A stretch of 64,000 nt of DNA from positions 25,443 through 89,442 of the forward strand of contig LQBI01000007.1 of assembly GCA_002030045.1 (NCBI GenBank), read 5' to 3'. Source of the DNA: Candidatus Aegiribacteria sp. MLS_C. Its GTDB lineage: Bacteria > Fermentibacterota > Fermentibacteria > Fermentibacterales > JCC-6. The notes beneath the pieces are model-generated. The model saw nothing but the letters and a program-made list of their open reading frames with translations. It did no database searches and was not told the origin of the DNA. Shown here piece after piece: positions 5,595-46,116 of this stretch (its first letter is position 1; the number at the start of each line of letters is the position of its first letter). A program made the position numbers and the translations under genes.

Positions 5595-7793
5595 ATGCTC
5601 AGAGTGATGATTACCTGTTCGCTCCTTGCGTCTTTCGCATTCGCGGAAGTACTCTATCGATCCGGGGAGCAGGTGGAACCGGCCCTGTACCTGGGCACTG
5701 ACGGCGAGGGCATTCTCGTCGAGTTCAACTTGCCCGCGCTGACCGCGGAGGAGCTGGTCGTGGGTGAATACGGTCCGGGCACCGTGATGAGGATCCCCGG
5801 AGAGGGAGTAGGAATGCCCGTAGGCGCTCCGGACCTCCCGGTGATCCGGCGGATGGTCCTGTTGCCCAATACAGGCGACGTCTCGATCGAGATCGTGTCC
5901 TCCGAATGCACCTCTCTCGGTATCTACGACATTCCTCCGTTCCAGGAGTTCCCCATCAGGAGCGGCGGAGCCGCCCCCTACAGGATAGACGACGGCATAT
6001 ACTCGAGTTCGGATCTGTATCCATACCAGCCGGTGGTCCTGGACAGGATAAGCATCCTCAGGGACATCAGGGTGGCCTGGGTTTACTTCTCACCGGTGCA
6101 GTACGATCCCGTGACCGGCCAGACTTTGCTCAACACATCGGTCACCGCCAGGCTCGTGGTCTCCGGCAGCGGCGAGAACGAGATATACAGGCCCTTCAGG
6201 GGCTACACCAGGAGCTTCATGCCCCTGTACGAGCAGGTGCTGGGCTTCCAGGGCGGAGGCACCGACGTCATCGACGGCTCCTACCTGGTCATCGGGCCCC
6301 AGGAGGGGATCGACCTGGTCTCCGGCCTTGTGGAATGGAAGAGGCAGAAGGGCCTGGAGGTCTTCATAGGCACCGTCCCAGAGATAGGCGGGACGGCCGC
6401 CGAGATAGACGACTACATAGAGGACGCCTACAACACATGGCCGAACCCTCCCGAATGGGTGCTGCTGGTGGGCGACGAGTACAACGTGCCGGTCTACTAC
6501 TCCAGCGGCACCGCGGCCGACAACCAGTACGGGGTCATCGGCACCGGATACGACCCCAGCGTCCACATCGGAAGGCTCTGCTCAGACACCGGCGACCTCC
6601 CCTACGTGGGCTGGAAGATAGAGGCCTACGAGAACGATCCCTTCGAGCCGGATCCCAGCTGGTTCCAGTACGCCATAAGCATCGGCTCGACTGATTTCCA
6701 GGATCCCTGGATGTCCTGGAGGTACGAACAGATATTCGAGGCTCACGGCATGCCCACCACGCTCTACTGCAACAACACCTCCTACGGCGGCATACCGCCT
6801 ACCATAGCCCTGATATCCGCCGACGTGAACAGCGGTATCTCCCTGCTCAGCTACATCGGCCACGGAAGCACCCAGTCCTGGGGCACAACCGGCTTCAGCA
6901 ACAGCGATGTTGCCGCGCTTTCCAACGACCGCAGGCTGCCGTGGATAAGCTCCATAGCCTGCTACAACTCAGAGTTCCAGGGAGGCACGACCTGTTTCGG
7001 CGAGGCCTGGATGAACGAGGGGGACGTAAACGACCCGAAGGGAGCCATAGGCTTCATGGGTGCCACCACCGGCAGCCCGGTGGGTCCCACCGACTCCCTG
7101 GCCCTCTACCAGTTCCGCGGGTACTTCGAAGAGGAAATGTACCACATGGGCGCCGCCTTCGACTACGGCAAGATCATGGCCTACTACATCTTCGGCTGCC
7201 CGGAGATGGACATCTTCTGCACTACCGGACCGCTGGTGCATCTCGCCGTCGACCACCCCGACTGCATCGAACCCGGTCCCTGGACGGTGACCGTGACCGC
7301 CGACGGCGTTCCCGTGGAAGGCGCCCTGGTTGGAATAGTCCAGGACACCACCTTCCTCGAGAGCGGCTACACGGACGCTTCAGGTGCGGCAGCCCTGGAT
7401 ATCCCCGCCATTCCCGGCACCGACTGGGTGACGGTCACGGCCACGGCCCACAACCTCTACCCGTGGGTCGGTTCCGTTCCGGTATCCGGCCTGGGTGTCG
7501 AGGAGGGAACGAACCCCGGCGTGTTCAGTCTGTCCGTGGGACCCAACCCGTTCTCCTCGGCGGCCACATTCAGCTACACCCTGCCGGTGTCAGGCCGAAT
7601 GTCGCTGGACGTCTACGACCTCACCGGCAGGCTGGTGACAAGCGTGGTCTCCGGAGAGCAGCCGGCTGGATCCCATTCCGTACAGTGGCAGGGAACCGGT
7701 GACGGCGGAAGTCCTGTACCGGGAGGAATGTACCTTGTGAGGCTCACGGCAGGCGGCGAGGCGCTTAACAGGTCCTGCGTCCTGATCCGCTGA
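5595..7793 (+). CDS. Gingipain-like C25 family cysteine peptidase with FlgD-like C-terminal sorting domain
   Basis: A 732-residue secreted protease. It has a signal peptide (residues 1-17), a propeptide-like beta region to about 210, then a C25 caspase-fold catalytic domain. The catalytic pair is readable: His in LLSYIGHGSTQSW (about 420) and Cys in SSIACYNSEFQ (about 455). An Ig-like domain follows, and the last 85 or so residues form a FlgD-like module (VGPNPFSSAATF, VYDLTGRLV, GGMYLVRL) of the type used for type IX secretion or surface anchoring. GGAGG just upstream supports the ATG. A strong terminator follows, so the gene appears monocistronic. A paralogue lies at 19527. Confidence 0.87.
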   Translation: MLRVMITCSLLASFAFAEVLYRSGEQVEPALYLGTDGEGILVEFNLPALTAEELVVGEYGPGTVMRIPGEGVGMPVGAPDLPVIRRMVLLPNTGDVSIEIVSSECTSLGIYDIPPFQEFPIRSGGAAPYRIDDGIYSSSDLYPYQPVVLDRISILRDIRVAWVYFSPVQYDPVTGQTLLNTSVTARLVVSGSGENEIYRPFRGYTRSFMPLYEQVLGFQGGGTDVIDGSYLVIGPQEGIDLVSGLVEWKRQKGLEVFIGTVPEIGGTAAEIDDYIEDAYNTWPNPPEWVLLVGDEYNVPVYYSSGTAADNQYGVIGTGYDPSVHIGRLCSDTGDLPYVGWKIEAYENDPFEPDPSWFQYAISIGSTDFQDPWMSWRYEQIFEAHGMPTTLYCNNTSYGGIPPTIALISADVNSGISLLSYIGHGSTQSWGTTGFSNSDVAALSNDRRLPWISSIACYNSEFQGGTTCFGEAWMNEGDVNDPKGAIGFMGATTGSPVGPTDSLALYQFRGYFEEEMYHMGAAFDYGKIMAYYIFGCPEMDIFCTTGPLVHLAVDHPDCIEPGPWTVTVTADGVPVEGALVGIVQDTTFLESGYTDASGAAALDIPAIPGTDWVTVTATAHNLYPWVGSVPVSGLGVEEGTNPGVFSLSVGPNPFSSAATFSYTLPVSGRMSLDVYDLTGRLVTSVVSGEQPAGSHSVQWQGTGDGGSPVPGGMYLVRLTAGGEALNRSCVLIR

Positions 7794-19375: not shown

Positions 19376-19526
19376 CCCTGCCGGTGTCATGAACTGCTTG
19401 ACAGCGGCAGCTCAGGCGGAGTATGCTCCTATGTCAAAGTATTGATTACAATGGTATTAGGTATGCGGTTCCCTACTGCTGTCCTGGCGAATAACCATCA
19501 CCGGTTCAATGAGAGAAGGTCGTTCC

Positions 19527-21938
19527 ATGAAGAGGCTGTCTTTCCTGGCCATGTTATTCCTGCTGCCCGCGGCTGTACTGGCGGGCAGCATGACGGTGAA
19601 CATTCCCTTCGATCCCTCCGAGGTCTCGGTCTCGGAAAGGGGACCCGTCACATCCGTGGTGCATCCCATGGGATACGTCACGTACACGCCTGGGCTGCCC
19701 TGCCTTCCGTTCCTTCCGGTAAGGGTAGCCCTTCCCACCGGATGCAGGGCCACCGGAATCACCGTCCTCGAGGAGAGCTACTCCACACTGGACGGTACCA
19801 GGTACGTGGCACCCTCGTCCGGCTGCTTCCCTCTCTCCAGGCCCGATCTTGCAGTCCCCGCGGAAGCCGATCCTCACGTGTACAGCCGGGACGGTTTCTT
19901 TCCCGAACGGCCGGTGATGATAAACGGTTCCAGTGTTCTCTGGGGAATACCGATAGCCTACATGACCGTATTTCCCGCCAGGTGGAACCCGGTGAGCGGC
20001 GAGCTGGAACTGCTTGACCACCTGCTGATCGAGGTGGAGTACGAGGAGGACCAGTCGGTCCGGCTGGTGCAGAGACGAACCGGGACCAGCGAGGAAAGGG
20101 CCATGGAGATGGTCCGCGGGATCGTCGTGAACCCATCCGACGTGTCCCCCTCCGGCGCCGTAATCGTCGAACCCAGGGAACTGGAGTACGGCCAGTACGT
20201 GATAGTGACCCATCCGGACTACGAAGCCGCCTTGGACGACCTGGCCGCCTGGAAGACCTCCAAGGGAATACCGGCCAGGATCTACACCACGACCTGGGTG
20301 GAGCAGAACTATTCCTTCTGGGATCTTCCCCAGGACATTAGGGCCTTCCTCACCGACTGCCGTGACGAGGGCGCAGACTACGTACTCATAGTTGGCGATG
20401 ACGACATGGTCGCCTGCAGGGACGCCCGGATCGCCACCTTCGGGTACCTGGAGGACGCCCCGTCCGACCTCTACTTCTCCGACATCAACGACACCGCTCC
20501 CGGCGCTGACCTGTGGGACACCAACTACAACCACATCTGGGGGGAACCCGCCGACAGCATAGACTACCATCCCGACCTCTGGGTGGGCAGGGCCAGCGTG
20601 AACTCGGTTTCGGAAGCCGAACTCTGGGTACAGAAGGCACTGTTCTACGAGCACATGACTAGCTGGCCGGGAATGACCGACTACTTCGACACGGCTCCGG
20701 TGGAGATGCGTATCGGCCACAGCACCCAGCTGCTATTCTCGCCCCCGTACTACGGCGCGGTGAGCGCCGAGATCATCTCCGGCTACGTACCGCCGGAGTG
20801 GGAGATTGAGAAGTGCTACGAGATGACGGGCAACAACAGCCACGCCATAACCGATGCTATGTTCAACGCGGGGCCCCACCACGCCTATGTGGCTGCCCAT
20901 GGAAGCCAGACCAGCTTCTCGGTACCGGGGGGCAGCTATACCACAGGCGACGTCATGGGTTTGACCAACATCTCCGACCAGGGCAGCGTGGCCATAATAA
21001 GCGCTATATGCTGTCTCACCGGGCACCTTGACGGCTCAGAGTGCTTCACCGACGCCTGGCAGGCCAGTCCCCAGGGCGGAGGCTTCGCCATGATGAACGC
21101 CCGGGAAGGCTGGGGTCACTACGGCGATCCGGGAATGGGTCCCAGCGAGAGGATCTGCGAGAAGTTCTACTACAGGTACCTCATCGAGGGCTACTACGAG
21201 CTGGGAATGGCCCACCTGACCGCCAAGGACTACTTCACACCGCCCTCCGCCTTCGTTGACAGTTTCGACCTCGACGGCAACGAGGAGGAAACCCTGGACT
21301 GGTGCCTGAAGGTCTACAACCTCTTCGGCGACCCGGAGCTGCCCATGTGGACTCTGGAGTCCATGGACCTGTCCGTAAGCCATCCTGCGGGCATCAACCA
21401 GGCAGGCGTGGTACATGTGGAGGTTACCAGCGGTGGCGGTCCCCTTCAGGACGCCAGGGTGTGTCTTCAGAAGGGCGACTGGCAGACCGGGGACATATAC
21501 GAGGTTGCTTACACCGACGGTTCCGGCGCTGCCGACATATACGTGAACCCGGCTTCGACCGGCACCATGGACATCCACGTGTGGGCCCACAACCACGACA
21601 CCTATTCCGGAGCCATCGCGGTAACCGGGGTAGGGGTGGAAGAGGCACCGATACCGGTCTGGAGCAACGGACTTGACCCGATAGCTCCCAGCCCCGCAGC
21701 AGGCAGCGCCCTGGTCCGCTTCAGCCTTGCCGCTCCCGGACATGCCAGGGTGGACGTGTTCGACATCTCCGGAAGGATAGTGGCGACCCTCGCCTCGGAA
21801 GAGCTTGCTGCTGGAGCCCACAGTCTGGTATGGAACCTGGAGGACGGTTCAGGCAGGCCGGTACCGGCAGGTCTCTACCGTATCAGGCTGTCCTCGGGCT
21901 CCTTCGTGGAAAGTGCCGGAATGGTGGTTATCAGGTAG
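19527..21938 (+). CDS. Gingipain-like C25 family cysteine peptidase with FlgD-like C-terminal domain
   Basis: An 803-residue secreted protease paralogous to the one at 5595. It has a signal peptide (residues 1-18, cleavage after VLAG), a propeptide, then a C25 domain with catalytic His in AYVAAHGSQTSF (about 456) and Cys in IISAICCLTGHL (about 494). The last 80 or so residues form a FlgD-like module (RVDVFDISGRIVATL; PVPAGLYRIRL). ATG 19527 was preferred over 19509 because AGAGAAGG lies before it and the signal peptide starts there. A perfect hairpin follows the stop. Confidence 0.87.
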   Translation: MKRLSFLAMLFLLPAAVLAGSMTVNIPFDPSEVSVSERGPVTSVVHPMGYVTYTPGLPCLPFLPVRVALPTGCRATGITVLEESYSTLDGTRYVAPSSGCFPLSRPDLAVPAEADPHVYSRDGFFPERPVMINGSSVLWGIPIAYMTVFPARWNPVSGELELLDHLLIEVEYEEDQSVRLVQRRTGTSEERAMEMVRGIVVNPSDVSPSGAVIVEPRELEYGQYVIVTHPDYEAALDDLAAWKTSKGIPARIYTTTWVEQNYSFWDLPQDIRAFLTDCRDEGADYVLIVGDDDMVACRDARIATFGYLEDAPSDLYFSDINDTAPGADLWDTNYNHIWGEPADSIDYHPDLWVGRASVNSVSEAELWVQKALFYEHMTSWPGMTDYFDTAPVEMRIGHSTQLLFSPPYYGAVSAEIISGYVPPEWEIEKCYEMTGNNSHAITDAMFNAGPHHAYVAAHGSQTSFSVPGGSYTTGDVMGLTNISDQGSVAIISAICCLTGHLDGSECFTDAWQASPQGGGFAMMNAREGWGHYGDPGMGPSERICEKFYYRYLIEGYYELGMAHLTAKDYFTPPSAFVDSFDLDGNEEETLDWCLKVYNLFGDPELPMWTLESMDLSVSHPAGINQAGVVHVEVTSGGGPLQDARVCLQKGDWQTGDIYEVAYTDGSGAADIYVNPASTGTMDIHVWAHNHDTYSGAIAVTGVGVEEAPIPVWSNGLDPIAPSPAAGSALVRFSLAAPGHARVDVFDISGRIVATLASEELAAGAHSLVWNLEDGSGRPVPAGLYRIRLSSGSFVESAGMVVIR

Positions 21939-33738: not shown

Positions 33739-36700
33739 ATGGAAATCTCACCAGAGGTTCTTGACAGGTTCGGAATACCAAGGGTCTCCTCCCTATCCTT
33801 CATCGACGACCTCACAGGGCTCCCAAATCGGAGATTCCTCCGCAGGGTACTCGACAAGCTGATAGACACCGGAAGTCCGTTCTGCGTCCTGTTTATCGAC
33901 CTGGACAGTTTCAAGCAGGTTAATGATTCAGCGGGACACGAGGAGGGGGACCGCCTCCTCCGAAGGCTGGGGGAGCTTCTGAGGGACTCCCTGCGGAAAA
34001 GGGACCTTGTCGCACGCTATGGGGGGGACGAGTTTGTGGTGATCCTGTCCTCCGGCGAGCGGGAAGAAGGAATTCTGGTGGCCGAGAAGGTGATCGAATC
34101 GATCGAGAGGGAGCTTGGTTCCCTGTGGGGTGTATCAGCCAGCATAGGCATCGCCTGCTATCCGGAACACACGATGGTGGCCAGTGATCTCATATCCATG
34201 TCTGACAACGCCATGTATTGCGCTAAGACCTCCGGCAGGTCGTGCTGGCGGTTGGCTTCCCCCGAGAGCAGCAGCGTATTCTGGCACGAGGATGTGTTCC
34301 TGGCGAGGAACCGTGAACTCGACAGGGCCACGGAGATACTGAGGGACCCTGACCGGAACTCCCTCCTCCTGATTACCGGCAGGATGGGATCGGGGAAGAC
34401 CTCCTTCCTGGGTGTCGTCGGGGAGAAGTTCGAGGACAGGAGAGTTCTCAGGATCGAAGGTCGACCGGAGCTGTCCGAAATACCATGGGCGGCACTGTCA
34501 ACCTCCATCAGGAAGCATGCGCCCGATTTCCCTGGAGTGCGCATGTCCAGCCTCTGGTCGAACCTGCTTGGAAGGCTTATGCCCGATGTATTCGGCGAAT
34601 CCGATCTCAGGGACAGCATAATGGACCGTTTCGCACTTCTGGACGCCTTCTCCAGGCTCCTGCAGGGCTGGGCGCCTGTGCTGTGCCTGGTCGACAACGC
34701 CCAGTGGCTGGACAGAGATACGGTTTCGATGCTGAGCTATGCGCTGCAGACTGGTGTTGTATCGGGCTTCTCCGTATGTGCCGCAGTCCTCGAGGAGGAT
34801 GATGACGGCGGTGGAGAGGTAGCGGAACTGCTGCGAAGGATACCCTTCGCACGGGAGATAGAGATGGGACCGATGTCATTGTTCCAGACATCGGAACTGA
34901 TCAAGGGCAGGCTGGGCGTTTCAAGGGAAGTTGATGAGTTTGCGGGTACGGTCCATAGATTTTCCGGCGGTAATCCGCTGTTCGCCTGCGAGTACATAAG
35001 GACCATACTGGATTCGGGCATGCTCAAGGTCGATGACGGAAAACTGCTGCCCTTCGCCCAGCCGGCCTCAGTTCCGGATCGAATAAGGAACATAGTCACC
35101 AGGAAGATAAGAACGCTGGGTTCCGAGACCAGGAAGCTGCTCCAGCAGGCTTCGGTCATCAGGAAGGAACCTCTGGAGCTGGACCTGCTCGAAGAAATGT
35201 CAGGAAAGACGGAGGGTGAGGTCCTGAGTTCCCTGGATGAGGGTAAGCGCAGTGGAATTCTGAGGACGGGTCCGGAAGACTCCATGTCCTTCTACTTCAC
35301 GAACGAAGCCTTCAGGGAACAGGTTTACTCCAGCGCGGGAAGCCGGACCGTCACAGGTTACCATGCGCATGTGGCCGAAAGGAGGATTAGGGAAGAAGAC
35401 CATCTGAATGCGGGCTATCACCTGAACAGGGCGGGAAGGAACCTGGAGGCCCTGGATATCTACCGGGAGGGCGCCGAAGCATATCTGCGAAAGGGACTTC
35501 CCGGCGCGGCAGTCTCATGCCTGGAGCAGGCGGACAGGCTCAGCCGCGAAATACCGGAAGCAAAGCTCTCCTTAAGCGAACTCTGTGATTTCAAGTACGA
35601 TCTGCTGAACGCCTACAGACTCGCCGGGGACTGGAAGAAAACCGGAGAGATATCACTCCAGCATGCATCCCTGGCCGAAGAACTGGGACGGACGAAAAAG
35701 GCTTTGTCCAGCAGGATCCTGGCCGCCGACTGCCATAGGATGGACGGCAGGTATGTGGATGCTCTGGTCGAGCTTGAAAAACTGGAACCCGGTCTGGAAG
35801 GTCTGTTTCTGGTGGACCTGCTGACAAGGGAAGCGGACAGTCTGAGCCGACTGGGAATGGCCGGGAAGGCGATGGAAAGACTGGACAGGGCCGAAGCCAT
35901 CCTCGAGAGTGAGACCGGGGACACGTCCGTTGCCAGAGCGGACACCCTGCATCAAAGGCTCATCGTCACGATATCGGTGGAGAGAATGGACGGGATCGAT
36001 GGACTCATCCGCGAAAACCTCGCGGTAGCAGAGAGGAATACCTGGATACCCTGGTGGAACTTCTACGACATAGCCGAGACGTACCTCCTCGCCGGGGAAC
36101 CGGGGTACGCGGTGGAGGTTTTCCGAAAGGCACTGGACAGAGCGGAACTGACCGCCTCCCTGCACGGTATCATGCTGATCAAGGCCGAAATGGCGGATGC
36201 CCTGTTCCATGACCTTCGTCTGGAGGCGGCGTCCGGTATCCTTGATGAGGTCGAGGATCTCGCACGAAGGTTCGGAGAACTCAAGGTCCTGGATGATGCA
36301 ACCCTCATAAGGGTGGAACTCTCCATGGAGACCGGTAACCTTGGACTTGCAAGGAACGGAGTGAACGGACTACTGTGCAGGCGTCCGGAGGACCCCGCAG
36401 CCGCAGTTGTGAACTCTTTCCTGCTGGAACAGGAGAATGATCTGGAGGGTTCTCTCGAAGAGATTCGAAGAACCCTTGATCTCCTGCAGGGCAGCAGCAT
36501 GAGTTCCATAATCGATACTTCGGTCATGACAACTCTGGACGAGATAAGACTTCAGGAAGCATGGACCTCTTCTCTCATGGAAGGTTCCGACTTCGAGGCA
36601 ATTATTCGCGGAATGATGCCCGGTCTCAATCGCAGGGCATCCTGCAGGGCCGCTGGACTCCTTGCCGGCTGGCTTCATGAGAGAGGCAGGACCGAAGAGG

Positions 36701-36840
36701 CGGAGGAGATCATCTCGAAGGCGCTGAATAACCCGGACTGGAGCAGGATGAGACTGTTCCGTTACCGGAACCTGATAATCCGGTCCCAGTGGGACATAGA
36801 AGCGGCTGAGGAAGCCCACGGGCTGATACGGGACTCCTGA
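33739..36840 (+). CDS. GGDEF - AAA ATPase - TPR signalling protein
   Basis: A 1033-residue cytoplasmic protein. Residues about 20-170 form a diguanylate cyclase domain with intact RYGGDEF (about 93-99) and an RxxD inhibitory site (RKRD) five residues before GGDEF. Residues about 185-480 form an AAA_16/STAND-like ATPase: Walker A TGRMGSGKTS, Walker B LCLVDNAQWLD. The rest is a helical repeat region resembling TPRs (AGYHLNRAGRNLEALDIYREG; KAMERLDRAEAILE). The architecture mirrors adenylate cyclase-AAA-TPR proteins with a c-di-GMP synthase in the catalytic place. It stands alone; no membrane segments are seen. Predicted c-di-GMP output gated by the ATPase/TPR sensor is inference. Confidence 0.82.
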   Translation: MEISPEVLDRFGIPRVSSLSFIDDLTGLPNRRFLRRVLDKLIDTGSPFCVLFIDLDSFKQVNDSAGHEEGDRLLRRLGELLRDSLRKRDLVARYGGDEFVVILSSGEREEGILVAEKVIESIERELGSLWGVSASIGIACYPEHTMVASDLISMSDNAMYCAKTSGRSCWRLASPESSSVFWHEDVFLARNRELDRATEILRDPDRNSLLLITGRMGSGKTSFLGVVGEKFEDRRVLRIEGRPELSEIPWAALSTSIRKHAPDFPGVRMSSLWSNLLGRLMPDVFGESDLRDSIMDRFALLDAFSRLLQGWAPVLCLVDNAQWLDRDTVSMLSYALQTGVVSGFSVCAAVLEEDDDGGGEVAELLRRIPFAREIEMGPMSLFQTSELIKGRLGVSREVDEFAGTVHRFSGGNPLFACEYIRTILDSGMLKVDDGKLLPFAQPASVPDRIRNIVTRKIRTLGSETRKLLQQASVIRKEPLELDLLEEMSGKTEGEVLSSLDEGKRSGILRTGPEDSMSFYFTNEAFREQVYSSAGSRTVTGYHAHVAERRIREEDHLNAGYHLNRAGRNLEALDIYREGAEAYLRKGLPGAAVSCLEQADRLSREIPEAKLSLSELCDFKYDLLNAYRLAGDWKKTGEISLQHASLAEELGRTKKALSSRILAADCHRMDGRYVDALVELEKLEPGLEGLFLVDLLTREADSLSRLGMAGKAMERLDRAEAILESETGDTSVARADTLHQRLIVTISVERMDGIDGLIRENLAVAERNTWIPWWNFYDIAETYLLAGEPGYAVEVFRKALDRAELTASLHGIMLIKAEMADALFHDLRLEAASGILDEVEDLARRFGELKVLDDATLIRVELSMETGNLGLARNGVNGLLCRRPEDPAAAVVNSFLLEQENDLEGSLEEIRRTLDLLQGSSMSSIIDTSVMTTLDEIRLQEAWTSSLMEGSDFEAIIRGMMPGLNRRASCRAAGLLAGWLHERGRTEEAEEIISKALNNPDWSRMRLFRYRNLIIRSQWDIEAAEEAHGLIRDS

Positions 36841-40760: not shown

Positions 40761-40787
40761 TTGTCAATTCAACTTTTAGGATATATT
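40761..40787 (+). promoter_or_regulatory. Promoter of the STAS-kinase-STAND phosphatase operon
   Basis: TTGTCA (40761-40766), then TATATT (40782-40787) at 15 bases, or TATTAA (40784-40789) at 17. TTGTCAATT is identical to the -35 block of the leader RNA promoter at 27081. Confidence 0.5.
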
Positions 40788-40838
40788 AAACAGCGAGGGT
40801 TTTCAGATCGTGACCAAAACACTTCCGGGAGGTTGAAA

Positions 40839-41180
40839 TTGAAGATCAAAGAGGAGATGAAAGGCGATGTGGTGGTCATAGGTCTTTCAGGAAAGGTTAT
40901 CGGTGGTCCCGAGCTGGTGGAGGTCAAGGACGCCTTCCAGAAAGCCGTCGACCAGGGACACAGCAAGGTCCTCCTCGATCTGGGCAAGGTCAGCTGGATG
41001 GACAGTTCCGGTCTCGGAGTGATCGTCTCGGGTCACACGACCCTCTCCAGGGCCGGTGGAGCGCTGAAGATCCTCAATGCCACGAAGAAGATCCATGAGC
41101 TTTTCATAATAACCAAGCTGATAACCATCTTCGATACCTACACTGACGAGCAGGAAGCGCTGAAGAGCTTTGGAGACTGA
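40839..41180 (+). CDS. STAS-domain anti-sigma factor antagonist
   Basis: A 113-residue SpoIIAA/RsbV-type protein. The phospho-acceptor motif is LGKVSWMDSSGLGVIVSG, with the serine pair at DSSG; the N-terminal strand is GDVVVIGLSGKV. In the family the unphosphorylated form sequesters the kinase and frees its target. Start TTG 40839 is used because GGGAGG lies upstream and the family needs this first strand; ATG 40857 would remove its lead-in. It is the first gene of a three-gene partner-switching operon. Confidence 0.88.
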   Translation: MKIKEEMKGDVVVIGLSGKVIGGPELVEVKDAFQKAVDQGHSKVLLDLGKVSWMDSSGLGVIVSGHTTLSRAGGALKILNATKKIHELFIITKLITIFDTYTDEQEALKSFGD

Positions 41181-41182
41181 CC

Positions 41183-41596
41183 GTGCTACCCATTGAGATT
41201 CGCTTTCCCAGCGATCCGTCGGTACTGGAGCCGGTGCAGCAGATAATCGAAGCTGTTGGAAGGTCGGCCGACGTGGAGGAGGACGAGCTGTCCTCACTTT
41301 CCGTAGCGGTTGTGGAACTGGTGAAGAACGCAATGGAGCACGGGAACGGGAACGATCCCGACAAGATGGTGACTGTCAGCTTCAGCATTTTCCCCAACAG
41401 AATACGGTTCCTGATAGACGATGAGGGCACTTGGGAACCGGAGAAGGCCCTGGGCTTCAATCCGGGCGAGGGGGACGAACTCCTTTCCACGAGGGGGCGC
41501 GGCATACTCATCTCCCGCAATCTGGCCAAATGGGTCGAATTCGGACTTACTCCGGAAGGAAAGACCAGGGTAACGCTGATCTGGCCCATTGCCTGA
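41183..41596 (+). CDS. HATPase serine kinase (RsbW/SpoIIAB-like)
   Basis: A 137-residue GHKL ATPase. The N box is VVELVKNAMEHGN, the G1-like box IDDEGTWEP, and the G2-like box LLSTRGRGILISRNLA. It is predicted to phosphorylate the STAS protein encoded two bases upstream and to hold a partner (sigma factor or other effector). No sigma factor gene is adjacent. GTG start. Confidence 0.85.
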   Translation: MLPIEIRFPSDPSVLEPVQQIIEAVGRSADVEEDELSSLSVAVVELVKNAMEHGNGNDPDKMVTVSFSIFPNRIRFLIDDEGTWEPEKALGFNPGEGDELLSTRGRGILISRNLAKWVEFGLTPEGKTRVTLIWPIA

Positions 41597-41611
41597 AGGT
41601 AACCGTTCCAA

Positions 41612-44600
41612 GTGAACAGCTTTACTCTATCGGTGGTTTTCGAGGGCAGGGAACTGCCCGGCGGTATCGAGAGCGTTCTCCGGGCCGACGTACAGCAGCT
41701 GGTACCGCCCAGGTGGGCCGATTCCCTCCTGATCACCGAACCCGGGAACGGTATTCCCGACGGCCTTATCCTGGTGGTGAACGGTAAACTCTCGCCCAGG
41801 CTTCGGAGCCACTACTACCGCTGCTTCAGGCACGGCGTGCCGGTCACCGCGCTCTGCTACCGCAGGGAACCCGAGGACGACGCCGTTGTAAAGGCGCTTT
41901 CGGCGGCCGACCGCTGCTGGAGCTTCATGTCGGTGAACGACGGCCGTGAGCGGATCAGGACCAGTGTGCAGGAATGGCTCAAAGGACTCAACCGGGAATC
42001 TTTCCCCTACCCCGAGGGCCGTGACCTCATAGACTCCTACGGTGACGTCGAGGTACTCGAGGTGGACAGCGATTCCCTGGAGAAGGCCCGGGAGGTCTTT
42101 GTCCGCAGGGGTTTCGTCTGCCTCAGCGGACCACTGGGCGCCGGCAAGACCACCATTGCCCGCAAGCTCCTCGGTGAGGCCTTCGCCTCGGGTCTCAATC
42201 CTGTCGAGATGATCACCAGGGACCTGGATTTCCGTGAAGTGGTACGCCTGCTTACGGGTCCGGAGGACTGCGCCGTGTTCCTCGACATCGATACTCTGAG
42301 GCGTCTGGTGGGCATCTACCCGTCCCGCCTCTGGTCGCTGGTGATATCCCTCATGATAAGGGCCACCGAGACCAGGCACAGGCTCATACTCGCCACCTCC
42401 TCGACGGAGATCGCCGGAATATTCGCCGGCCACGACGACGCCCACGTGAACCTGCCGGAACCATCCAGGGAGAGACGGTGGAGGCTGGAGGAGGGCAGGC
42501 AGGCTCTGGAATGGTTCAGGGAGATGGATTCCCTGGACAAGGCCGAACTGCTCCTCATGGCGGCTTTCGACCCCCTGGTGGCAGAGGCCGTCTTCAAGAG
42601 GGTCCTGTTCCGGCTCCTGGACCGGCTCATGGTCCAGGAGCGCAAGCGGTTCCCGACCAGTGAAGAGCTTGAGGACTTCTATCTGAGGAGCATGGCTTCC
42701 CGAGGGATCGCTCCCTTCCGCAGGATCAGTGGAAAGGGGGAAGTGTACCTCGCCGTGAGCGATTCGGTGAAGATGTGGGCCATCGACCAGGGCATCAGGG
42801 AGCTTCTCGAGAAGGATTCCCCGGTCATCAGGGCTTTCATCGATACGCTGATGGAGAACGAGGAGCCCAACATCAGGAGGGCCGGCTACTTCCTCGCGGG
42901 CTTCTACGGAAGCCTCTCCGACGAGGTCAAGGCGAAACTGCTCCTGCATATAGCATCGGAGAAGACCCGTCTCGTGCTTCAGGATGTTCTCAACACGCTG
43001 CTCAGCCGCCGGGAGGACCTGGACGATTCCATAGTCAGCATGTTCGGTGTGATGATGGCAAGGGGCAGCGGGGAGGTGAGGGAATCGGTAGCTGAGACAC
43101 TGGGCCGGAAGTGGGTCCTGGAGTCCCGAAGGCTCCGGGGCATCGTGGAACAGGCCGCAGAGGACCCCGAGCCCTCCGTAAGAGGCAGGTTCCTGGAGGG
43201 CCTCACTATGTGGGGGATTTCCGGAAGGGGCATGGAGATGTACAGGTCCTTCCTCGAGGATGATTCCTTCGAGGTCCGGCGGGACCTGATGCTCCACCTG
43301 GGAAGCGAGTTCCCACAGCTTGATGCAAAGGAGCTGGCCGTCCTCAACGATGTGCTGGAAAAGGGCGACCCGCGTCATATGACCAGCCTTATAATGGGGC
43401 TCCTGGACAGGAAACCTGAGGATTTCAATCAGGTGTTCAACGACCTGCTGTGGGTGCTCATGGAGAGGCTTCCACCCGGCGGCAAGGGACAGCTTGCATG
43501 GAGGATAGGCGCCAGGCTCAGGTTCTTCAGTCCCGAAGTCAGGGCTTCTCTGAGGAGCGACCTCAGCGAGGAGGACACGCTCCTTGTCACGAGATGCATG
43601 CTTATGAACTACTCGTTCCTTTTCGAGGAGGAGAAGAGGACCCTCTGGGAACTCGCAGGGGAGAGGACAGCCAGGAACAGGGAGTTCGCCAGCATGGTCC
43701 TCCGATACTACAACATCATGGAGGAGGAAATGAGGGACAGGCTCCTCCGCAGCGTTCTGGAATCCGACAGACCCGAGGGCAGGGACGCCCTGAGCCAGCT
43801 TGTATGCCTAGGCAGGACCGATCTCACGGAGGCTTCGGCCAGACTGGCCGCCAGCATTCTGAAGAGCAGCGATTTCGAGAAGAGGGCGGCGCTGCCCTTC
43901 TTTCTGCTCTGGAACATGGAAGACCTCGGCGGTACGGCGGAAGACTGCCTCGGATCACTGGTAAGGGATCCCTCGTCCTACGTCAGGAGAAGACTGGCTT
44001 CTTCGATCAGGGACCTGGGCGGTGAAGACGGGTTTTTCACGGAACTACTCGATTCGCTGGCATCTGACGAGAAGCGGGCGGTGAGGGCCGAGGTGGCGCT
44101 CTGCCTGGGCGAGCTGGAGAAGGCGGATTCCCCCGAGGTGAGCCAGGTCCTGGCCTGCCTGCTGCGGGATGAAGATACCTTTGTACGTCTCAGCGGTCTT
44201 TCCGGTCTGCTTAACAACGTGATGGTCTCCCGGGACAAACTCAGGCCCATCATGCTCTCGGCGCTTTCAGACCCGGCTCCCGATGTCAGGATCGAGGCTA
44301 TCAAGGGACTTCGGCGGCGCCCCGACCTCCAGTCTGCGGAGGGCGTGGACGGAATTCTTGCGGACCGTTTCGCCGACCCCGACAGGAACGTGCGCATGGA
44401 GGTGGTACGCCTGGTGACAGATACTCCAGGGCTGCTGGGTTCCGAGGTGATAAGGAAGAGGATGCCGGACATCCTCCTGGACAGGCTCTCCACGGGACAC
44501 GCCATTTCCGAGGAACTCAACATGGCAAGGAAGATACAGCTCGATCTACTGCCCGACCGCCCTCCAACCCCCGACAAGTGCGACATAGAGATATTCTACA

Positions 44601-45226
44601 GACCCGCCAGGGAGGTAGGCGGCGATTATTTCGACTTCTTCCAGCTGCCGGACCGCAACCTTGGCCTGGCCATAGCGGACGTGGCGGGCAAGGGGATCCC
44701 GGCGGCTCTCACCATGGCCGGCCTGAAAGGCAACCTGAAAGCATACGTCCAGAGCATCTATTCGATCAGCGAGATCATGCAGAAGGTCAACGAGTCGTCG
44801 GTGCTGGGAGAGGGGGATCCCATTATGACCGGACTCTTCTACGGCGTTCTGGACACCGATTCGGGAACCCTCACGTACGTCAACGCAGGCCACAATCCCC
44901 CTCTCCTTCTCAAGAGGGACGGTGCAACGAGGTGGCTGGACAGGGGCGGCCTTATTCTGGGACTGTCGAGCGGGGCCAGGTACGAGCACGAATCCGTTGG
45001 AGTCGATTCGGGAGATGTCCTGGTGCTGTACACCGACGGCCTGACGGAGGCCATGGACCATTCGGGCAGGGAGTTCGGGACCGAAAGGCTGATGAGCGTG
45101 GTCCGCGAGAACAGGGACCTATCAGCCCACCAGATCTCCAGCGGCATTCTCGAGGCAGTCAACGGTCATGCCGGAGAACTGTCCCAGAGCGACGACCAGA
45201 CACTGGTAGTGCTGAAGTACAGATGA
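41612..45226 (+). CDS. STAND-type NTPase - HEAT repeat - SpoIIE/RsbU phosphatase fusion
   Basis: A 1204-residue cytoplasmic protein. Residues 1-130 form an alpha/beta unit resembling TIR or DUF4062-like Rossmann domains (GLILVVNGKL; HGVPVTALCYRRE). Residues about 145-380 are a P-loop NTPase like STAND/nSTAND3, with Walker A LSGPLGAGKTTIA (173-181) and Walker B CAVFLDID (220-227). Residues about 400-950 are HEAT-like helical repeats (DPAPDVRIEAIKGLRRR; DPDRNVRMEVVRLV). Residues about 965-1204 are a PP2C phosphatase of RsbU type: switch helix EELNMARKIQLDLLP, EVGGDYFDFF, IADVAGKGIPAAL, YTDGLTEAMD and SDDQTLVVLK, all metal ligands present. It is predicted to dephosphorylate the STAS partner on NTPase/HEAT sensing. 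GTG start, 15 bases after the kinase. Confidence 0.85.
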   Translation: MNSFTLSVVFEGRELPGGIESVLRADVQQLVPPRWADSLLITEPGNGIPDGLILVVNGKLSPRLRSHYYRCFRHGVPVTALCYRREPEDDAVVKALSAADRCWSFMSVNDGRERIRTSVQEWLKGLNRESFPYPEGRDLIDSYGDVEVLEVDSDSLEKAREVFVRRGFVCLSGPLGAGKTTIARKLLGEAFASGLNPVEMITRDLDFREVVRLLTGPEDCAVFLDIDTLRRLVGIYPSRLWSLVISLMIRATETRHRLILATSSTEIAGIFAGHDDAHVNLPEPSRERRWRLEEGRQALEWFREMDSLDKAELLLMAAFDPLVAEAVFKRVLFRLLDRLMVQERKRFPTSEELEDFYLRSMASRGIAPFRRISGKGEVYLAVSDSVKMWAIDQGIRELLEKDSPVIRAFIDTLMENEEPNIRRAGYFLAGFYGSLSDEVKAKLLLHIASEKTRLVLQDVLNTLLSRREDLDDSIVSMFGVMMARGSGEVRESVAETLGRKWVLESRRLRGIVEQAAEDPEPSVRGRFLEGLTMWGISGRGMEMYRSFLEDDSFEVRRDLMLHLGSEFPQLDAKELAVLNDVLEKGDPRHMTSLIMGLLDRKPEDFNQVFNDLLWVLMERLPPGGKGQLAWRIGARLRFFSPEVRASLRSDLSEEDTLLVTRCMLMNYSFLFEEEKRTLWELAGERTARNREFASMVLRYYNIMEEEMRDRLLRSVLESDRPEGRDALSQLVCLGRTDLTEASARLAASILKSSDFEKRAALPFFLLWNMEDLGGTAEDCLGSLVRDPSSYVRRRLASSIRDLGGEDGFFTELLDSLASDEKRAVRAEVALCLGELEKADSPEVSQVLACLLRDEDTFVRLSGLSGLLNNVMVSRDKLRPIMLSALSDPAPDVRIEAIKGLRRRPDLQSAEGVDGILADRFADPDRNVRMEVVRLVTDTPGLLGSEVIRKRMPDILLDRLSTGHAISEELNMARKIQLDLLPDRPPTPDKCDIEIFYRPAREVGGDYFDFFQLPDRNLGLAIADVAGKGIPAALTMAGLKGNLKAYVQSIYSISEIMQKVNESSVLGEGDPIMTGLFYGVLDTDSGTLTYVNAGHNPPLLLKRDGATRWLDRGGLILGLSSGARYEHESVGVDSGDVLVLYTDGLTEAMDHSGREFGTERLMSVVRENRDLSAHQISSGILEAVNGHAGELSQSDDQTLVVLKYR

Positions 45227-45342
45227 CCGGTGGTGCTCAAGTAAATATGACCGGCGGTGCTCAAGTAAGTATGACCGGTGGTGCTGAAGTAAAGATGATC
45301 GGTGGTGCTGAAGTAAAGATGACTGGTGGTGCTTAAGTAAAG
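45223..45342 (+). repeat. Five 24-bp tandem repeats joining a stop codon to the next start codon
   Basis: Units at 45223, 45247, 45271, 45295 and 45319, each starting ATGA and built on ATGACCGGTGGTGCTGAAGT plus AAAG, with 1-3 differences per unit. A sixth, diverged unit (19 of 24 matches) is the last 24 bases of coding sequence just before (45199-45222). The array ends exactly at the ATG of the SAM hydrolase gene. In one frame it encodes MTGGAEVK-type octapeptides (37 codons, stop at 45334-45336). Confidence 0.9.
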
Positions 45343-46116
45343 ATGAGACGCACGGTATACCTCCTTTCGGACTTCGGGGAATCGGATACCTATGTGGGGC
45401 AGATGAAGGCTGTGCTGGATTCCCTGGCTCCCTACGGAACGGGAATGATCGACCTGACCCATGAAGTGGAGCGCGGATCGGTCACCGAGGGCGCCTTCCA
45501 CCTCCGGGCAGCGGCGCCTTTCCTGCCAGCAGGTTCGGTGGTGCTGGCAGTGGTCGATCCCGGAGTGGGTACGGACAGGAGGGGACTGGCGGTCATATCC
45601 CGGGGTGTACACTTCGTCGGTCCGGACAACGGGCTCTTCGGCCTCCTGGAAGTGGAGAAAGCGTGGGAGCTGCCTCCGCCGCCTTCGGGATCGAGCCGCA
45701 CCTTCCACGGAAGGGATCTCTTCGCGCCGTCCGCGGCGAGGATACTCCTGGACCCGGGCTGGACCGGTTCCCTCCGGCCTTTGTGCCCGTCCACCATGGT
45801 CGGTACCGGTGTGGAGCTTCCCTCGCTCAGGGATGGAGGGCTGGAGGTGACCGTGATCCATACGGACCGATTCGGGAACGTGGTGCTCTGGATGGACCCC
45901 GATGAATACGAAGACCTGGTACCCTCCGGCGTGGTGCTTCCCGACGGCGGGGAACGGTCACTGACACCGGCGGCGACCTATGGCACCAGCCGGGGACTGC
46001 TCTACCTGAGGGGCAGCCAGGGGTTCATGGAACTGGCCTTCAGCGGCGGCAGCGCAGCAGGAGTCCTGGGCATCTCTCCCGGGGACAGGATCGTGTTGAG
46101 GTTGAGCAGGGCATGA
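45343..46116 (+). CDS. SAM hydroxide adenosyltransferase (DUF62 type)
   Basis: A 257-residue enzyme of the family that splits S-adenosylmethionine to adenosine and methionine using hydroxide. Family blocks are present: LSDFGESDTYVGQMK, AVVDPGVGTDRRGLA, GPDNGLFG, and RTFHGRDLFAPSAARI; the catalytic Asp/Arg/His positions lie in these. The start ATG directly abuts the 24-bp array and has no Shine-Dalgarno sequence, only GAAGTAAAG. The stop overlaps the GH57 start as ATGA. Confidence 0.87.
   Translation: MRRTVYLLSDFGESDTYVGQMKAVLDSLAPYGTGMIDLTHEVERGSVTEGAFHLRAAAPFLPAGSVVLAVVDPGVGTDRRGLAVISRGVHFVGPDNGLFGLLEVEKAWELPPPPSGSSRTFHGRDLFAPSAARILLDPGWTGSLRPLCPSTMVGTGVELPSLRDGGLEVTVIHTDRFGNVVLWMDPDEYEDLVPSGVVLPDGGERSLTPAATYGTSRGLLYLRGSQGFMELAFSGGSAAGVLGISPGDRIVLRLSRA

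Follow-up and report, generated by a model that had tools for sequence, protein, structure and literature searches.

In bacterial partner switches, a kinase phosphorylates a serine of a STAS-domain antagonist and a SpoIIE-domain phosphatase reverses this modification. The phosphatases of the Bacillus systems RsbU/RsbV/RsbW and SpoIIE/SpoIIAA/SpoIIAB receive their input through RsbT-binding, PAS or membrane domains, and those of SiaABCD and RssB (Pseudomonas aeruginosa) and of Rv1364c (Mycobacterium tuberculosis) through HAMP-, receiver- or PAS-type domains. The nearest published fusion of an ATPase to such a phosphatase is LIC12324 of Leptospira interrogans, arranged as PK-AAA_16-GAF-SpoIIE (PMC5100919). 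Here, we describe a three-gene operon (40839-45226, forward strand, as for all its features below) in a 64,000-nucleotide stretch of contig LQBI01000007.1 from Candidatus Aegiribacteria sp. MLS_C, hereafter the window, whose coordinates are used throughout. The three genes code for a STAS antagonist, for an RsbW-like HATPase and for a 1204-residue protein that joins a STAND NTPase and HEAT repeats to a SpoIIE phosphatase. We consider it probable that the phylum uses this operon as its core partner switch, with the fusion protein as a nucleotide-gated phosphatase that is encoded in the operon and serves a single hub. The partner switch itself is known; what is new is the input module, nSTAND3-HEAT.

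The fusion gene (41612..45226) ends in a SpoIIE/RsbU-type PP2C phosphatase (residues 985-1204, 44564..45223). An earlier note on this DNA had described this domain as complete and preceded by a HEAT-like array, and both descriptions stand: a Pfam search of the protein matched a complete SpoIIE domain at residues 1013-1203 (E = 5.6e-45) and HEAT_2 with E = 3.4e-20. All four aspartates expected to be metal ligands (D1005, D1023, D1142 and D1195) are invariant in homologues. The closest PP2C structures are SiaA (Z 26.6; root-mean-square deviation 2.4 over 240 residues), Rv1364c RsbU (24.8) and RssB (23.1), systems which have other inputs and different outputs and carry neither a STAND nor a HEAT part. 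Ahead of the phosphatase, a HEAT-like alpha solenoid spans residues ~401-955 (42812..44476), as placed by Pfam HEAT_2/HEAT and the structural model; Foldseek matches it to the PP2A A subunit, by generic fold only. The two are joined by a linker (residues ~956-984, 44477..44563) made up of a flexible start, where the predicted local distance difference test (pLDDT) is low at residues ~953-968, and a helix with the pattern EL..AR.IQ; 34% of its columns are invariant. Linker and PP2C domain are the most conserved regions of the protein, and the N-terminal domain and most (outer) HEAT segments the least, the latter being what would be expected of an input region.

Structure prediction of the whole protein, which the earlier note had suggested as a check, gave an AlphaFold2 model of residues 5-1204 with pLDDT 85.8 and a predicted template modelling score (pTM) of 0.69; a model of residues 1-410 reached pLDDT 84. 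By their strands and helices in the model, residues 1-124 (41612..41983) form an alpha/beta, Rossmann-like domain. It matched zero Pfam families, and its candidacy as a receiver domain was rejected by hhalign (probability 1.5%) and by a negative Pfam search. The P-loop NTPase that follows (residues 150-285, 42059..42466) was delimited by the Pfam nSTAND3 match, invariant residues and comparison with Foldseek and VIA. The nSTAND3 profile (PF20720) matches residues 151-267 (E = 4.4e-8, 33.4 bits), and the window protein scores 33.4-35.7 bits against a cut-off of 27.2. The same profile matches 25/25 homologues, with a best E of 1.3e-12, and lies above cut-off in the operon's fusion protein in most genomes of the phylum. 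Walker A (G173-x4-G178-K179-T180) and Walker B (D225/D227) are invariant in these 25 homologues, which share ~40-70% identity. SAMD9, Avs4 and Avs5 filaments were among the first Foldseek matches to residues 1-410, while a second aligner, VIA, ranked Avs5 (Z 11.4) in among ordinary AAA+ proteins; the fold by itself thus does not prove a STAND protein, and the assignment to STAND rests on the nSTAND3 profile. With this match, the domain was found to be STAND-type, as previously proposed, rather than a member of an unrelated kinase or AAA family.

A place in the classical NACHT/AP-ATPase clade was also considered and rejected: the window protein matched NB-ARC with E = 0.058 and 13.1 bits, below the cut-off of 23.5, and NACHT was absent among its matches listed, the best NACHT E among homologues being 0.0025. 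Profile searches of PDB sequences with the STAND half returned short P-loop-like matches only, and residues 1-410 had zero matches in plasmids. C-terminal to the NTPase lies a helical and predicted winged-helix-like segment (residues 286-400, 42467..42811), defined by the model and by invariant residues that include the motif PFRR; the models predict an H-H-E-E-H secondary structure pattern over residues ~350-400.

The other two genes carry the expected marks of a partner switch. The STAS protein (113 residues, 40839..41180; Pfam STAS, E = 1.5e-12) is SpoIIAA/RsbV-like and scores above the cut-off for TIGR00377, anti-sigma factor antagonist. Its motif WMDSSGLG is invariant among 29 homologues, and Ser56 within it is the predicted phospho-serine by analogy with SpoIIAA and RsbV. 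The RsbW/SpoIIAB-like switch-protein kinase (137 residues, 41183..41596; Pfam HATPase_c_2, E = 6.4e-22) has an N-box (E45..N49..H53) and an RGRG motif, which are conserved across 29 homologues, N-box core residues included. Both identities, as well as the positions of the three open reading frames and their spacing of 2 bases (STAS/HATPase) and 15 bases (HATPase/fusion), agree with the earlier note. The first gene starts with TTG behind the Shine-Dalgarno sequence GGGAGG. In its STAS protein, HATPase kinase and SpoIIE-family phosphatase, all with intact motifs, the operon resembles the Bacillus switches, and with RsbU it further shares a helical linker ahead of the phosphatase; unlike them, it feeds its phosphatase through nSTAND3-HEAT and holds no sigma factor.

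A promoter had also been claimed upstream of the STAS gene. While a strict scan for the sigma-70 consensus found zero promoters in the operon region, phylogenetic footprinting identified a candidate, TTGTCA - 15 nt - TATATT (approximately 40761..40787). Alignment of the corresponding region from 11 relatives showed TATATT in 11/11 and TTGTCA in 9/11, separated by 16 nt in most relatives as against 15 nt in the window, and a promoter at this place is therefore plausible.

The homologue census covered 42 genomes of the phylum Candidatus Fermentibacterota, and a scan of database contigs for relatives gave four matches, all in metagenome-assembled genomes of Fermentibacteria/Aegiribacteria. A full-length fusion in an open frame is present in 30/42 genomes, near-constant in length and 40-68% identical to that of the window; 8 further genomes hold it in pieces, mostly cut by contig ends, and in one of these 8, G026, it is broken into several frames. 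The order STAS-HATPase-fusion was found at 29/29 loci with upstream DNA, which answers the survey of gene neighbourhoods proposed in the earlier note, and the operon is usually single-copy. The wider neighbourhood is likewise conserved at most loci and consists of core chromosomal genes rather than a defence island: a 4Fe-4S membrane protein, a thioredoxin-like protein and GT2 before the operon, and S-adenosylmethionine (SAM) hydroxide adenosyltransferase, GH57, a nucleotidyltransferase, a phosphotransferase and TrpRS/TyrRS-type and CysRS genes after it. With order and surroundings conserved across the phylum, and with 30 full-length homologues from independent genomes, an assembly artefact is ruled out; the fusion is real and old, and the pattern speaks for vertical inheritance, probably as a core regulator.

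At the downstream border in the window, a 24-bp tandem repeat (45205-45346; 5.9 copies, 88% match) sets in within the final codons of the fusion gene and runs up to where SAM hydroxide adenosyltransferase has its start codon. Its units are all similar to the 3′ end of the fusion gene (GGTGGTGCTGAAGTAAAGATGA), which gives the impression of a multiplied stop/start junction; at a related locus (L010) the two genes lie 8 bases apart.

Within the MLS_C genome, the operon's STAS protein is the sole free-standing antagonist, the other STAS domain belonging, as judged by eye, to an MlaE-like permease, and the HATPase of the operon is the sole free-standing HATPase_c_2 switch kinase above cut-off. The same genome encodes at least six SpoIIE-domain proteins; those other than the fusion, about six, have inputs that, judged by eye from their sequences, are membrane, GAF-like, helix-turn-helix or hemerythrin-like. 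Orthologues of STAS and HATPase occur in an identical set of 35/42 genomes. Among the seven without them, three (G031, G002 and G006) keep fusion pieces on broken contigs, two (G017 and G020) are 61-66% complete, and two near-complete ones, G013 (98%) and G040 (92%), lack all three operon genes as well as any SpoIIE domain. Since all SpoIIE domains were lost along with the operon in G013 and G040, the data suggest that all SpoIIE phosphatases may act through one STAS protein.

Further SpoIIE proteins of unusual build were seen. At locus L007 (G000:C16:4308-7868), a 448-residue protein combines an N-terminal helix-turn-helix (XRE-like, by eye), SpoIIE and a C-terminal HATPase_c_2, placing phosphatase and kinase-like domains on a single chain; at L006 (G000:C30:76891-80484), a SpoIIE phosphatase carries at its N-terminus a helical domain whose sequence looks hemerythrin/ferritin-like by eye. 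In one genome only (G015:C5:147596-149208), a further STAS protein, diverged to 29% identity, adjoins a 1039-residue SpoIIE protein, apparently as an additional partner-switch module.

Taken as the switch of the phylum, the operon would work as follows. The HATPase would phosphorylate the STAS protein at the predicted Ser56 and the C-terminal SpoIIE domain of the fusion would remove the phosphate, upon which the unphosphorylated STAS protein would bind the kinase and set the kinase's target free. In RsbU-type phosphatases, activation comes about through helical linkers that pair and thereby dimerise the phosphatase domains (PMC12143880), a mechanism that the linker helix of the fusion fits. 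As the input to this linker is the nSTAND3-HEAT module, nucleotide state and a partner bound at the HEAT solenoid likely control the phosphatase: together they may rearrange the gating module of NTPase, winged helix and HEAT repeats, and this change, passed on by the linker, could bring the phosphatase domains into a dimer or into alignment, on the model of RsbU. The membrane- and GAF-type SpoIIE phosphatases of the genome probably act on the same STAS protein, and the fusion would be the operon-fixed, cytosolic input into this one hub. Several points weigh against this account. Its biochemical steps, including dephosphorylation, nucleotide gating and convergence of the phosphatases, are predictions; oligomerisation of the STAND part is not predicted by the present analysis; and it is not obvious how oligomers of the NTPase domain would bring together phosphatases that lie at the C-terminus, past a solenoid of 550 residues. 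The co-loss, moreover, is based on two genomes, both of 1.9 Mb and reduced in general, such that general genome reduction is an alternative cause. A bolder version, in which nucleotide-driven nSTAND3-HEAT assembly pairs the SpoIIE domains and this inflammasome-like step sets global transcription, possibly via the primary sigma factor, with the STAND NTPase as central ATP-gated sensor of the phylum's single partner switch, appears rather improbable to us.

What the switch acts on may be a sigma factor or an enzyme. As the earlier note had remarked, no sigma factor is nearby: 0/6 sigma-70 region-2 genes of the genome, two of them RpoD-like and four ECF, lie on the operon's contig. Presence and absence of sigma factors in six genomes gave zero clean matches to the operon pattern; a second housekeeping-like sigma factor is missing in G013 and kept in diverged form in G040. 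These results, together with a phosphatase fold closest to SiaA, favour a SiaABCD-like output onto a diguanylate cyclase or other enzyme, with no sigma factor involved. However, the STAS protein scores as an anti-sigma factor antagonist, and GGDEF domains as a class persist in genomes that lost the switch, such that class-wide co-loss speaks against a cyclase target. In Chlamydia, an RsbW that lacks an alternative-sigma partner is able to bind the primary sigma factor (PMC4552016), and SiaABCD controls a cyclase; both offer workable models of the output by analogy. We regard enzyme output as a serious possibility, though less likely than not; it is compatible with a nucleotide-gated phosphatase, and our confidence in the two overlaps.

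The input module could also have other roles. If the NTPase/HEAT part were a constitutive scaffold that places the phosphatase or tethers it to a complex, its nucleotide would be structural and zero NTP-dependent signalling would follow. HEAT scaffolds of phosphatases do exist, as the generic PP2A A subunit match recalls, and Foldseek/VIA alone cannot separate STAND from other AAA+ folds; but invariance of Walker A and B over the homologues goes beyond what a structural nucleotide needs, though it is no proof, and we find the scaffold unlikely. The earlier note had proposed an NLR-like input, of which the STAND-type NTPase has held up; ligand binding by the repeats, NTP-dependent oligomerisation and a stress-sigma output are its hypothetical parts. 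In a direct immune reading, STAND-HEAT would sense an invader protein and oligomerise, and the phosphatase would throw a stress or dormancy switch. nSTAND3 is indeed the NTPase of Avs5 anti-phage proteins (PMC12931631), and like Avs5 and SAMD9, which rank with Avs4 among the top Foldseek matches, the fusion has repeats C-terminal of the P-loop module. Yet Avs5 carries an N-terminal SIR2 effector, the usual position in Avs/NLR proteins, whereas here the phosphatase is repeat-distal, at the C-terminus, and belongs to a partner-switch operon. The usually single-copy locus is syntenic and conserved phylum-wide amid core genes, divergence of the sensor region is moderate and not exceptional, and PADLOC gives only a weak generic HEAT-ARM match (E 6.2e-6), on which, with the housekeeping neighbourhood, membership of the Avs defence systems was rejected. 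An immune or conflict sensor is consequently very improbable.

Elsewhere in the window, ~4 kb upstream, a 1033-residue GGDEF - AAA_16 - TPR protein (33739-36840) joins a diguanylate cyclase to a STAND-like ATPase and repeats, and is a second signalling enzyme in the window with such an input. Two peptidases of the C25 family (gingipain-type; 5595-7793 and 19509-21938) have a propeptide and an FlgD-like Ig domain, which suggests that they are secreted.

The earlier note had named this its leading candidate for an undescribed system. In the open-licence papers searched, neither the nSTAND3-HEAT-SpoIIE architecture nor partner switching in Fermentibacteria is described, yet ATPase-SpoIIE fusion has a precedent in LIC12324 (PMC5100919), which likewise joins a STAND-like, AAA_16-type ATPase to the phosphatase, although its NTPase is of a different family, kinase and GAF domains are present and HEAT is not listed. 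If our interpretation is true, RsbU-type phosphatases would gain an NTP-gated class of input, and its predictions are open to direct testing, namely a phosphatase activity that depends on ATP and a single STAS hub shared by several phosphatases. Among the STAND ATPases that have been studied well, many act as immune or apoptotic switches and have destructive effectors. A vertically inherited, phylum-wide STAND protein with a reversible phosphatase output would place such a sensor module in ordinary global regulation.

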